From Brachybacterium fresconis (GTDB lineage Bacteria; Actinomycetota; Actinomycetes; Actinomycetales; Dermabacteraceae), in contig NZ_JAGIOC010000001.1 in NCBI RefSeq assembly GCF_017876515.1, positions 3,100,001 to 3,164,000 of the forward strand: a stretch of 64,000 nt of DNA, read 5' to 3'. Under the pieces are notes generated by a model that did no database searches, was not told where the DNA came from, and saw nothing but the letters and a program-made list of their open reading frames with translations. The position numbers and the translations under genes were made by a program. Position 1 is the stretch's first letter; every line of letters begins with the position of its first letter. Below are positions 19,116-23,980 of the stretch, piece by piece.

Positions 19116-19174
19116 GGTGGACGCTATGGGCGGTCACAGTGCGACACAGAATCTCGTCAGAAGGGATCCACCGG

Positions 19175-21898
19175 ATGAACTTCCCGGTCAGGACCGCGGG
19201 CACCCGTCTCGTCATCGTCGGCGGAGGGCCGCGCGCGATCGGCGTGCTCGAACGCCTCGCCGCCCGTGCCGCCCTGCCCGAACAGGCCGCTCGTCTGGAG
19301 GGTGCTCCGCTGCACGTGGACATCGTCGACCCGCACATGCCGGGTGCCGGGAGGATCTGGCGCGCCGTCGAGAGCCCCCTGCTGCTGATGAACTCCCGCG
19401 CCGCCGACGTCTCGATCTTCACCGACGACACCGTGGAGATCGACGGCCCCGTCGTCGCCGGCCCCTCGCTCGCCGAATGGGCCGCCGGGATCCGGGAGGG
19501 CACTCTCACCGCCCCCACCGCCGGCACCGCCCGTCTGGCGGAGATCGAGGCGATCGGGCCCACCAGCTTCGCCGGCCGCCGCGTCCAGGCCCTCTACCTC
19601 GAATGGTTCCTCGGCCAGGTGCTCGCCGCCCTGCCCGCGACGGTCACCGTCACCGTGCACCGCACCACCGCCACTGCCGTGCATCGCGCCACCGCCACTG
19701 CCGTGCACCGCACCACCGCCACTGCCGTGCATAGCGCCCCCGACGCCACCGCCGCCACGCATCGCGCCGCCGCCACCACCGTGCCCCGCGCCGACGACAG
19801 CGCGGGATGGAGCGTCGAGCTCGACGACCGCGCGCCCCTGCCGGCGGACCTGCTGGTCCTGGCCGCCGGACACACCGACGCCCGCCCCTCGCCCGCCCGC
19901 CACGAGCTGGCAGCCTTCGCCCGTCGCCACGGCGGCGCATATCTTCCGCCCTCGCAGGCCGGCGACGCCCACCTCGACCAGCTCGCCGCGGGCCAGGAGA
20001 CCATCGTGCGCGGCATGGGGCTGGGCTTCATCGATCTCATGGCCCTGCTCACCGAGGGCCGCGGCGGCAGCTTCGAGACCGATCCGCTGCCCGGGGAGAC
20101 CGACCGCCTGCGCTACCTCCCCTCCGGTCGCGAACCCCACCTGCACGTCGGCTCCCGCCGCGGCGTGCCCTACCACTCCAAGGTGCGCGACGAGGGGGAG
20201 CCCACGTCCCTGGGCGAGCTCGTCCACGTCACCGCCTCGGCGCTGCGGGAGCGCGAGGACTCGGACGGTCGCCTCGACCTCCGCACCGACGTCGTGCCCC
20301 TGATCGCCGCCGAGATCGCCCACTGGGTCCCCGACGCGCCCGTCGCCGCACCCGGCCAGGAGCCGCTGGCCTGGCTGGACGACCCTCTCGCCGGGCTGGC
20401 CGACTCGCGGGCATCGCTCGACCCTGACGCCGCATCGCAGGCGGCCCGAGATGCAGTCGTCCGCCACATCGAGGACGACCTGCGCGAGCGCACCCAGGGA
20501 GATGTCACCTCCGCCCGGATGCTGTTCCAGCTGCTGCTGCGCCTGCACGGGGTCCTCGTCGACCAGCTGCCCACCACGCGGCTGCGCGAGAGCTCCCGCG
20601 GCGACCACCCGCGCTGGTGGCATTCGCTGTTCAGCTTCGTCGACTCGGGCCCGCCCCCACATCGCCTGCACCAGCTGCTCGCCCTCGAGCGCGCCGGGGT
20701 GGTCTCCTTCCTCGGGCCCCGCACGGTGGTGACGGCCGACGACGCCACCGGTCGCTTCGTCGCCCGCGGGGGCGTCGGCACCGAGGTCGAGGCCACGGCG
20801 CTGGTCGACGCCTTCCTGCCCGAATCCTCGCTGGCGGAGTCCACCAACCCGCTGCTGCGCCATCTCGTCGCCGGGGGAGCGGCCGCGGTGGGGCGGGAAT
20901 CGGCGGCTGCCGCAGGCAAGCTCGAGATCGACGCCGGATCCCGCGTGATCGCCCCCGACGGCACGATCCACGACACGCTGTGGGCCGTCGGCCCTTGGAC
21001 CTCCGAGCTGCCGATCGGCGCCTTCGCCCGGCCCCGCACCAACGCGCCCTGCCACCGGCGCAACGACGCCCTCGCCCGGGACGTGCTGGAGAGCGCCCTC
21101 ACCCGGTGGGAGGCGTCCCGTCGCCCCGTCGGCGTCGGTCGCGAGCACGACGGGGCTGAGGGGACGACCGACGGGAGCGCGGCAGCGGCGCGCTCCTGGC
21201 ACGGGGCGCCCGCGGGCAGGGAGCCGGGCCCGCGCCACGCGGCGCGGGCGCTGCGCCTCGGGGTCCTCGGGCCCGGCAGGATCGGCAGCGCACTCGCCCG
21301 GACCGCACTCCGCGCGGGGATGGAGGTACGGGTCGCCGGACGCGCCCCGGCGCCCGTGCTCGCCGCGAAGCTGCCCGGAGCCGCGCCGGCCGCGCCGGCG
21401 GATCTCGCGGCGGACTGCGACATCGTTCTGCTCACGGTGCCGCTGCACGTGGCGCTCCAGCTCGACCCGCAGGCCCTGCGCGGCGCGATCGTCGTCGATG
21501 CCACCAACCCGTGGGGCGAGGAGGACGCGGCGGCGATCGCCGAGGCGCGCATCGCCCTGGGTGATCAGCGCGGCGCCCTGTCCACGAGCGAGCTGGTCGC
21601 CGCGCACCTCGACGCCTCCCGGGTGGTAAAGACGCTCAACCACATCGGGTACCACGACGTCGAGGACCAGGGCCGGGGCAGCGGGGACCCCGGACGACGA
21701 GCCGTGGCAGTGGCCGCGGACGATCCTCTCGCGGCCGAGGCCGTCGGCGTTCTGCTGCACCGGCTCGGGTACGACGGGGAGATGATCGGCTCCCTCGCCG
21801 ACGGCCGCCATGTCGAGCCCGGCGCGGGACTGTTCGCCGGCTGGAGAACCCGCACGGAGCTCCACGAGCGTCGCCGGGAGCTGGTGCGGGTGGGGTGA
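19175..21898 (+). CDS. Fusion of FAD/NAD(P)-binding protein with an F420-dependent NADP-reductase-like domain
   Basis: A 907-residue protein with two Rossmann modules. The N-terminal part (about residues 9-650) is an FAD/NAD(P)-binding family protein starting RLVIVGGGPRAIGVLERLA and resembling N-hydroxylating or acyl-peptide-type oxidoreductases. The C-terminal part (about 694-907) begins LGVLGPGRIGSALARTALRAG and matches NADP-binding reductases of the F420-dependent type (NPFxE-like NPWGEED segment near 776). An Ala/Thr/His/Val 8-residue repeat (residues 164-188) lies inside the first module. The ATG at 19175 has GAAGGGA eight bases upstream. It is divergent from the importer/monooxygenase operon and may supply reduced flavin or act on the same compound; that is inferred from position only. 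Confidence 0.75.
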   Translation: MNFPVRTAGTRLVIVGGGPRAIGVLERLAARAALPEQAARLEGAPLHVDIVDPHMPGAGRIWRAVESPLLLMNSRAADVSIFTDDTVEIDGPVVAGPSLAEWAAGIREGTLTAPTAGTARLAEIEAIGPTSFAGRRVQALYLEWFLGQVLAALPATVTVTVHRTTATAVHRATATAVHRTTATAVHSAPDATAATHRAAATTVPRADDSAGWSVELDDRAPLPADLLVLAAGHTDARPSPARHELAAFARRHGGAYLPPSQAGDAHLDQLAAGQETIVRGMGLGFIDLMALLTEGRGGSFETDPLPGETDRLRYLPSGREPHLHVGSRRGVPYHSKVRDEGEPTSLGELVHVTASALREREDSDGRLDLRTDVVPLIAAEIAHWVPDAPVAAPGQEPLAWLDDPLAGLADSRASLDPDAASQAARDAVVRHIEDDLRERTQGDVTSARMLFQLLLRLHGVLVDQLPTTRLRESSRGDHPRWWHSLFSFVDSGPPPHRLHQLLALERAGVVSFLGPRTVVTADDATGRFVARGGVGTEVEATALVDAFLPESSLAESTNPLLRHLVAGGAAAVGRESAAAAGKLEIDAGSRVIAPDGTIHDTLWAVGPWTSELPIGAFARPRTNAPCHRRNDALARDVLESALTRWEASRRPVGVGREHDGAEGTTDGSAAAARSWHGAPAGREPGPRHAARALRLGVLGPGRIGSALARTALRAGMEVRVAGRAPAPVLAAKLPGAAPAAPADLAADCDIVLLTVPLHVALQLDPQALRGAIVVDATNPWGEEDAAAIAEARIALGDQRGALSTSELVAAHLDASRVVKTLNHIGYHDVEDQGRGSGDPGRRAVAVAADDPLAAEAVGVLLHRLGYDGEMIGSLADGRHVEPGAGLFAGWRTRTELHERRRELVRVG
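19666..19737. repeat. Three 24-bp in-frame repeats inside the fusion gene
   Basis: Three 24-bp units starting at 19666, 19690 and 19714 differ only at two positions and encode TATAVHRA/T-like octapeptides. A partial unit precedes them. The repeat is in frame, so copy-number change would lengthen a surface loop rather than break the gene. Confidence 0.85.
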
Positions 21899-21964
21899 AC
21901 GCCGGCGATGCCGGATCGGGTGAAGTGCAGGGCGGTTGCGGCCCGGCGCGTCTACCCTGGAGTC

Positions 21965-22190
21965 AGTGTGAGGCTTGGTGGTGCCGCGGGTGTCGCGGTG
22001 GTTGGATCCTTTCCATCCGGTGATTGGCTCTTAGCCTGGCTGCCGCTCCGTGTTGAGCTGGCCTGCATGGGTATTGCCGTCGCCGGGTGGGAAGGACCGG
22101 CCGGCGTGACTTGATAGGAGCGTGCAGCTGCCCCACTGAGGTTTGTCCGCCGACCGGCCCGACCGTTCGACCCCACTCGAATACAAGGGA
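21965..22190 (+). ncRNA. Probable IS110 bridge RNA region
   Basis: IS110-group elements transcribe a bridge RNA from the non-coding DNA ahead of the transposase, and this RNA has loops that pair with target and donor DNA. Here the 235-bp stretch has no reading frame of its own and shows several hairpin-like pieces: CCGCG/CGCGG near 21983-21997, GGAT/ATCC near 22002-22016, and GC-rich pairings between 22083 and 22110. The exact 5' end, the loops and the core dinucleotides could not be set from one copy. Confidence 0.45.
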
Positions 22191-22200
22191 GGCAGTCGCC

Positions 22201-23292
22201 ATGGTGGTCCTGATCGGCGCTGACGTCCACAAGAACTCGCACACCTTCGTCGCGGTCGACGCGGCGGGCAAGCAGATCGGGCAGATCACGGTCCGCGCGA
22301 CTCACAGCGGTCACGAGAACGCATATCGCTGGGCCCGGAAGAGCTTCATCGAGCAGGATCGTCGGTGGGGGCTGGAGGATTGCCGCCACCTCACCGGTCT
22401 GCTCGAACGCGACCTCCTCGCCCACGCAGAGCCCGTGGTCAGAGTTCCGGCGAAGCTGATGGCTCGCCAACGCGCCGCAGCGCGCACCCGCGGGAAGTCC
22501 GACCCGATCGATGCTCTCGCCGTCGCTCGTGCGCTGGCCAGGGAAGAGGATCTTCCCATCGCGTTCACCGATGAGCAGGCACGAGAGATCAAGCTGGTCC
22601 TGGCCCGTCGTGAGGACCTGGTCGCGGAGCGGACCCGGGTGATCAACCGCCTGCGCTGGCACCTGCACGAACTTGATCCTGAAGTCGATCCGGCACCGCG
22701 CGCGCTGACTCATCGACCGGCCCAGGAACAGGTGCGGGGCGTGATCGAGACGAGCGAGGGGATCGTCGCGGAGATCGCAGGCATGGTCCTTGCCGATCTT
22801 GAACGGCTCTGCCACTCGATCAGCGAGCTCGATGCGCGGCTGCGTGCCATGGTCCGGGAGGTGGAGCCGGTCCTACTGGAGATCCCTGGCTGCGCGGAGT
22901 TGTCGGCCGCGAAGATCATCGCCGAGACCGCGGGGATCGAACGGTTCGCGAACGACGGGAAGTACGCGATGTTCGCCGGCTGCGCTCCGATCCCGGTCTG
23001 GTCAGGCAAGACCGAGGGAAGGGTCCGTCTGAACAGGGGCGGGAATCGTCAGTTGAACTGCGCGATTCACCGTATCGCCTTGACCCAGATTCGCCTCGAG
23101 GGGCCCGGCAAGGACTACTACGAACGACTCCGAGAACAGGGAAAGACCGTGATGGAAGCACTCCGCTGTCTCAAGAATGCCATCGCCCGCCGCATCTGGC
23201 GCACTCTCACCCACGCCCACGCCGAAGCCCTCGCCAACACCCCGATTCCACTGAACCCCACCTCAACGACTTGCGTCCGGCAAGCCGCTTGA
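22201..23292 (+). CDS. IS110-family transposase (DEDD recombinase)
   Basis: A 363-residue transposase. The N-terminal RuvC-like DEDD domain has its first Asp in IGADVHK (Asp8), the Glu in GLEDC (about residue 59), and the last acidic pair in KSDPIDALAVARA (about 99-102). The C-terminal Tnp_20-like domain carries IPGCAELSAAKIIAETAG and the conserved Ser in PVWSGKT that is the nucleophile in this family. ATG at 22201 has GGGAGG ten bases upstream. Full length and intact, so it may be active. Confidence 0.93.
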   Translation: MVVLIGADVHKNSHTFVAVDAAGKQIGQITVRATHSGHENAYRWARKSFIEQDRRWGLEDCRHLTGLLERDLLAHAEPVVRVPAKLMARQRAAARTRGKSDPIDALAVARALAREEDLPIAFTDEQAREIKLVLARREDLVAERTRVINRLRWHLHELDPEVDPAPRALTHRPAQEQVRGVIETSEGIVAEIAGMVLADLERLCHSISELDARLRAMVREVEPVLLEIPGCAELSAAKIIAETAGIERFANDGKYAMFAGCAPIPVWSGKTEGRVRLNRGGNRQLNCAIHRIALTQIRLEGPGKDYYERLREQGKTVMEALRCLKNAIARRIWRTLTHAHAEALANTPIPLNPTSTTCVRQAA

Positions 23293-23306
23293 CATAGGAG
23301 ATACCC

Positions 23307-23858
23307 ATGAGCATCTTCGGGGGGAAGGACGGCCGCGGCCCGGGTGGGGACCCGTCCTGGCTGGGCGGCACGGACCGTGACGGGTCGAGCGGGACGAACT
23401 GGTCCTCCGACTTCGGCGCGGAGGACTCCGCGGCGCAGGGCACATCCGACGGCGGATCCCGCACGGATTCGGACTTCGGCGGCGGCTCGGATGTCGGGGG
23501 CGGCTCGGACGTCGGGGACGGCACGCGGTCCGGCGGCGACGCCGGAACAGAAGCGCCCAGCTACCAGGCACCGCGGTTCGGGGACGGCCGCGGTGAGGGA
23601 GCGAACGGTCGCGGCGGTGACCAGGAAGTCGACTTCGCCTCCGGTTCCCCCGGGACGGAGGAGTCAGAGGGAGGTGGCGGATCCAGCAAGGGGATCGGGG
23701 CGAAGATCCTCGGCGTGCTGGGCTCGCTCGTCGGCCTGATCATCGCCGTGGTCGTCGCCTACCAGGTGGGGATCGACGTCTTGTGGCTCCTCATCTTCGG
23801 CGCCATCCCGCTGGTCAGCCGGGCGGCTCGCGCCTTCCGGGGCGGCGGACAGCGCTGA
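23307..23858 (+). CDS. Low-complexity Gly/Asp/Ser-rich protein with C-terminal membrane segment
   Basis: A 183-residue protein. The first 125 residues are disordered and rich in Gly, Asp, Ser and Arg, with repeated GGGSDVGG-type pieces. A hydrophobic stretch (about residues 131-172) suggests two closely spaced membrane helices, followed by a short basic end. No known domain is seen. AGGAG lies seven bases before the ATG, but the native promoter was probably displaced by the IS110 insertion immediately upstream, so expression may depend on read-through from the element. Confidence 0.7.
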   Translation: MSIFGGKDGRGPGGDPSWLGGTDRDGSSGTNWSSDFGAEDSAAQGTSDGGSRTDSDFGGGSDVGGGSDVGDGTRSGGDAGTEAPSYQAPRFGDGRGEGANGRGGDQEVDFASGSPGTEESEGGGGSSKGIGAKILGVLGSLVGLIIAVVVAYQVGIDVLWLLIFGAIPLVSRAARAFRGGGQR

Positions 23859-23915: not shown

Positions 23916-23980
23916 GATCGAGAGTGCTGTTTCGGGCGCCTCAACAGCACGTGAGGCGCCCGAAACTGCACTCTCGGATC
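23916..23980. repeat. 65-bp bipartite palindromic repeat, copy 1
   Basis: Arms of about 28 bases pair almost perfectly (one bulge, one mismatch) around an 8-base loop. The outer arm contains GATCGAGAGTGC and the inner arm GGGCGCCTC. Related copies are at 35023-35085 and 36650-36715. This copy lies between two converging genes and could terminate both. Confidence 0.85.

Follow-up and report, generated by a model that had tools for sequence, protein, structure and literature searches.

How does an insertion sequence come to lie precisely between the promoter and the start codon of a host gene? The question is raised by an IS110-group element in a stretch of 64,000 nucleotides (the window; positions 3,100,001 to 3,164,000 of contig NZ_JAGIOC010000001.1) from the 4.6 Mb actinobacterial genome of Brachybacterium fresconis, for which an original prediction, made from the sequence without database searches, had proposed a bridge-RNA region ahead of a DEDD/Ser recombinase and, with it, a new target/donor code. 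Comparison with related elements bears out the bridge RNA, by its structure and by covariation of its guides with flanking DNA, and we consider it very likely that its target loop addresses leaderless promoters, with consequences that insertion would have for expression. The features concerned, in window coordinates, are as follows.

21953 to 21958, + strand: host -10 hexamer TACCCT, the left target, outside the element (by position; the sister empty site is TATCCT-N6-ATG).
21963 to 23304, + strand: whole IS110-group element, 1,342 bp, from the T of the core to ..GATAC (eight aligned copies and empty sites; ends approximate).
21964 to 22200, + strand: left end, non-coding, with the predicted bridge RNA at about 21964 to about 22165 (two-loop structure conserved in 34 left ends).
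21970 to 21975, + strand: GAGGCT, a NANNNT hexamer and candidate junction promoter (by consensus only), 17 nt from TTGACA in the element circle.
22031 to 22040, + strand: left target guide TTAGCCTGGC (covariation with left flanks).
22066 to 22070, + strand: right target guide CATGG, complementary to CC-ATG (per-position pairing and permutation).
22071 to 22074, + strand: GTAT at the handshake-guide position, complementary to the right-end terminus ATAC (59 of 60 pairs are GTAT/ATAC or GTTT/AAAC).
22114 to 22120, + strand: left donor guide ATAGGAG, the same as ATAGGAG of the right end (near-invariant).
22134 to 22140, + strand: right donor guide CACTGAG, reverse complement of the circle junction CTCAGTG (near-invariant).
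22201 to 23292, + strand: IS110-group DEDD/Ser recombinase of 363 residues (Pfam; PDB entries of IS621 and ISCro4).
23289 to 23304, + strand: right end TTGACATAGGAGATAC, with a -35-like TTGACA, the recombinase stop codon and AGGAG (23296 to 23300) six bases before the host ATG.
23305 to 23858, + strand: right target CC-ATG and the host gene begun there, 183 residues, leaderless by sequence (sister orthologue with the same ATG and TANNNT-N6 before it).

A second copy in the same genome, 100% identical, gives element ends at about 21963 and 23304, and further end-defining copies are present in a sister genome (four, at 91-92% identity) and in Kocuria (two). The left end, CAGTGTGAGG, begins at 21964, 237 bases ahead of the recombinase ATG at 22201, the T at 21963 being presumably donor-derived; the right end, which contains ..AGGAGATACCCATG.., is far shorter, spanning 12 nt past the stop codon as against 237 nt. 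We discarded a reading in which the right end would finish at GGAG and AAAC would belong to the target, because AAAC is not found in the empty sites. The second copy (locus L002, G000:C1:1383776-1385138, minus strand) lies between TAGCCT and the ATG of a polyphosphate kinase 2-like gene, and its left flank, TTAGCCTG, is an exact match to the left guide. Upstream of the element in the window is an open reading frame (ORF) of 919 residues (19139-21898) with an FAD/NAD(P)-binding domain (PF13454) and an F420-dependent NADP oxidoreductase-like domain (PF03807), and downstream of the target gene a long near-perfect palindrome (GAGAGTGC.GTTTCGGGCGCCTCA, 23917-23978) is perhaps a terminator or a repeat.

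The recombinase ORF is intact, as the original prediction had stated, and its product matches DEDD_Tnp_IS110 (3.6e-24) and Transposase_20 (3e-18) in Pfam. Among PDB entries it matches those of ISCro4 and IS621, the IS621 recombinase being only distantly related (2e-6), and D8, E59, D101, D104 and S268 align with the IS621 catalytic residues D11, E60, D102, D105 and S241 (PMC11208158). Both the DEDD RuvC-like domain and the serine-bearing Tnp domain of the IS110 family are therefore present. Long sub-terminal inverted repeats are a mark of the IS1111 group; our placement in the IS110 group instead would rest on the left-end RNA. The left end had been described as 235 non-coding bases without an ORF: the plus strand indeed holds no plausible gene, the length is 237 bases, and an antisense ORF of 287 residues (21952-22815, minus strand) overlaps the left end together with half the recombinase gene. 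This overlap is mechanical and the ORF is probably a by-product of high G+C; its position recalls the antisense hed ORF of IS900.

The hairpin-forming stretches noticed earlier are real features of the left end, whose RNA fold is more stable than that of shuffled sequences (z -2.7; 2 of 200 shuffles as stable). An Rfam scan of the window gave zero matches at gathering cut-offs. A single copy folds with the region paired otherwise, and we used instead the consensus of 34 aligned left ends, which consists of two hairpins with internal loops, one holding the left and right target guides (LTG and RTG) and the other the left and right donor guides (LDG and RDG). Within it 98.9% of cells are paired, 13 pairs are altered on both sides against 3.2 in shuffles (0 of 500), and sliding the partners abolishes this signal, so that the structure is conserved among homologues as had been anticipated. 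The donor guides match the element ends by identity (ATAGGAG and CACTGAG); they are near-invariant in the family, and their support therefore comes from identity rather than covariation. Taken on its sequence, 21964-22200 is well supported as a bridge-RNA region.

The guides could be compared with their targets in a wider sample, assembled from protein searches and fetched copies, of 85 distinct insertions with readable ends, which divide by target into three classes whose element ends are similar. Class A, to which the present element belongs, comprises 60 copies with a right end ..[AT][AT]AC. The left guide, the stretch that follows GGCTC in the first internal loop (TTAGCCTGG as RNA), copies the actinobacterial -10 box TANNNT, and every one of the 27 distinct left guides of class A has this box, with NNN in 13 variants. 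At these variable positions the guide agrees with its own left flank at an identity of 0.912 (53 insertions, 26 guides), compared with a mean of 0.423 and a maximum of 0.667 when guides are permuted between guide groups (0 of 10,000 as high, P 1e-4); the expectation that loop bases would match the flanks of several insertions is thus confirmed (91% against 42%). The right guide, CAUGG, reads N-C-ATG/GTG: pairing over N-C-start codon, with G-U allowed, is 0.75/1.00/0.98/0.98/0.98, and past the start codon it drops to 0.48 and 0.42, with permutation means of 0.46 and 0.39. The first of the five positions covaries (P = 2e-4). The guide then continues with four bases, GTAT or GTTT, which in 59 of 60 copies complement the terminus of the right end (ATAC or AAAC), an agreement expected of IS621 handshake guides (PMC11208158). 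Both target guides thus covary with the target flanks.

What kind of site do these guides address? In class A the right flank is a start codon in 59 of 60 copies (41 ATG, 18 GTG), TANNNT lies 5-7 nt ahead of the left end in 53 of 58 insertions, and the reconstructed sites read TANNNT-N6-9-start in 55 of 59. A Shine-Dalgarno-like motif is present in 2 of 59 such sites before insertion and in 59 of 59 after it. Orthologous empty sites in sister genomes (14 alignable) have TANNNT-N6-ATG in 12 cases and TANNNT-N7-ATG in two; when the two flanks of each of the first six copies are joined, the result is TANNNT-N7-ATG, with one base more than the empty sites, apparently because the donor contributed a T at the left junction. 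In Mycobacterium tuberculosis 73% of primary transcription start sites have a TANNNT -10 box 7-12 bp upstream, and position -1 favours C; of the genes with a primary start site, 26% are leaderless, whether they begin with ATG or GTG (PMC3898074). The target layout, TANNNT-N6/7-ATG, is the same as that of the mapped leaderless promoters of M. tuberculosis, with the start codon at about +1 and no Shine-Dalgarno sequence, and it is for this reason that we read the class A target, as judged by its sequence, as a leaderless promoter. An exact search of the element's own genome for TTAGCCTGNNNCCATG returned zero untouched perfect targets.

Could the left end be simply an ordinary structured 5' leader that regulates translation of the recombinase, with no guide RNA at all? 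It is long and structured and lies directly ahead of the ribosome site AGGGAGG, as such a leader would; yet neither conserved complements of both element ends nor covariation with the flanking DNA of each insertion would be expected of it, and with the LTG and RTG results against it we accord it virtually no credence. Alternatively, the bridge RNA may be real and its address a product of survivorship, insertion being wide and only those events being seen that spare host genes. Insertions within genes are selected against, and the AGGAG of the right end would make those at start codons the mildest, but survival alone does not predict that a left guide should match its own flank at the variable NNN, and class B and class C relatives with other guides sit elsewhere; on the LTG-flank covariation we dropped survivorship as a sole explanation and regard it as improbable. 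Hardly better are the prospects of an element that targets translation start signals only, the resemblance to a -10 box being incidental. The right guide does read the start codon, and IS900 of M. avium subsp. paratuberculosis, also of the IS110 family, targets gene-start signals (Shine-Dalgarno-N6-CATG) and rarely breaks genes (PMC8141618). However, the IS900 site, CATG-N6-TCTCCTT, combines a start codon with a Shine-Dalgarno sequence in the opposite orientation and has no -10 box (PMC8141618), and a target of that type was rejected here given how rare the motif is in the reconstructed sites (2 of 59), while the invariable TANNNT of the left guides, with its varying NNN, corresponds in form to the -10 box as mapped in mycobacteria.

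Several observations nonetheless weigh against a bridge RNA addressed to leaderless promoters. A candidate for a 5' stem-loop like that of IS621, ahead of the two loops, is visible (GCCGC..GCGGT) but is paired otherwise in the consensus fold. A clear TANNNT is absent from four of the 59 reconstructed sites, including nested or duplicated left ends, and the right flank of one Kocuria copy (L027) lacks a start codon; moreover, copies in related genomes are partly non-independent events. Finally, the products have N-T at the left in 59 of 60 copies and C-N at the right in 60 of 60, and the donor core looks like CT, so that target cores often differ from CT, contrary to the preference of IS621. 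This pattern may reflect mismatch repair or a different cut position.

Transcription from a captured promoter, the benefit to the element and the chemistry are what we infer beyond the leaderless-promoter address itself. The -10 hexamer TANNNT would be recognised by pairing with the left guide and N-C-A/G-T-G by pairing with the right one, G-U wobble accommodating GTG, and the recombinase, using the guides as IS621 does, would place the element some two bases ahead of the start codon. In the inserted element, the host -10 box captured 5-7 nt ahead of the left end would start transcription on the first left-end bases, and this transcript could furnish both the bridge RNA and the recombinase mRNA. 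At the other end, AGGAG-N6-ATG, which follows the recombinase stop codon, would allow translation of the host gene, now leadered, to continue. On excision, the circle junction would bring together a TTGACA-17-NANNNT promoter, as in IS621. Insertion thus probably borrows the host promoter and gives the gene a ribosome-binding site instead of destroying it, as far as sequence can indicate.

Relatives with other guides appear at other sites. Class B (16 copies) lies in intergenic repeats that look palindromic, and its guides, at the same loop position, match their own flanks at 8-11 of 11 bases in 14 of the 16 copies; of the remaining pair, one lies at a contig end with too little flank and one has a probably misplaced boundary. 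Loci of the class B type, with GCTCGC.. flanks and repeat-matching guides, are L093, L100, L108, L110, L112-L115, L147, L152 and L154-L159. The nine class C copies lie at the end of what, from its sequence, resembles an IS3-family OrfA coding region (..LRRANEILRRASAFFA..); two 45-residue stretches flanking class C elements gave zero Pfam matches. Relatives at 45-49% identity with a left guide like TTTCTTCG (L038-L047, L051) occupy the C-terminal end of IS3-like OrfA genes and so habitually nest one element within another. The three class labels require only two changes when placed on the recombinase tree, and class-level retargeting is therefore rare. Drift of the guide inside the -10 consensus would allow relatives to reach different subsets of leaderless promoters. 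Plasmid relatives (45-55% identity) have mostly other target types, the only one again with TACGGT and a matching LTG being L163, on an M. intracellulare plasmid. Tandem left ends occur at L124 and L034; the L124 locus has a left-end fragment truncated within the left guide and, after it, a full copy, as though the guide gene, being equal to the target, had served as an insertion site.

An IS110-group element with a bridge RNA is of a kind already known (PMC11208160, PMC11208158, PMC11187229). The present element shares with IS621 the DEDD/Ser recombinase, the long left end, the target loop with LTG and RTG and the donor loop with LDG and RDG, as well as the handshake bases, an apparent CT donor core and a promoter predicted to re-form at the circle junction (Durrant et al. 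2024, PMC11208160; Hiraizumi et al. 2024, PMC11208158); unlike IS621, its address is a -10 box plus start codon, its target cores often differ from CT, and its right end supplies the host gene with a Shine-Dalgarno sequence. In the available portion of the report on the seekRNA of ISEc11 and ISEc21 (Siddiquee et al. 2024, PMC11187229), an RNA from the non-coding region likewise picks the target and natural reprogramming between relatives is described, with ISEc21 targeting an IS3-family gene as class C relatives appear to; a promoter or start-codon address is not met in that portion. Full-text literature on IS110 and leaderless genes, with preprints and most subscription papers outside the search, likewise gave no description of a promoter/start-codon address. 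It is this address that appears to be new, the bridge RNA itself being known, and of the new target/donor code proposed originally the target half stands, as a functional class of site, whereas the donor guides hardly vary within the family.

The earlier bridge-RNA reports, in the parts available, describe targets chosen by RNA and not a regulatory-site class as target code (PMC11208160, PMC11208158, PMC11187229). The address found here suggests, for genome engineering, recombinases that place cargo at native actinobacterial promoters. Guides drifting inside the -10 consensus, beside palindromic-repeat and IS3-like-gene guides, constitute a natural reprogramming series, which makes testable the retargeting of bridge guides, RNA expression by inserted IS110 elements and tolerance of insertion at start codons. 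On balance we lean, if only slightly, towards an RNA-guided transposon whose guide encodes a functional regulatory motif, namely the leaderless promoter plus start codon, and which lives as the first gene of a host transcription unit: the captured promoter would feed the guide RNA and the recombinase, the host gene would gain a ribosome site, and insertion would be near neutral.
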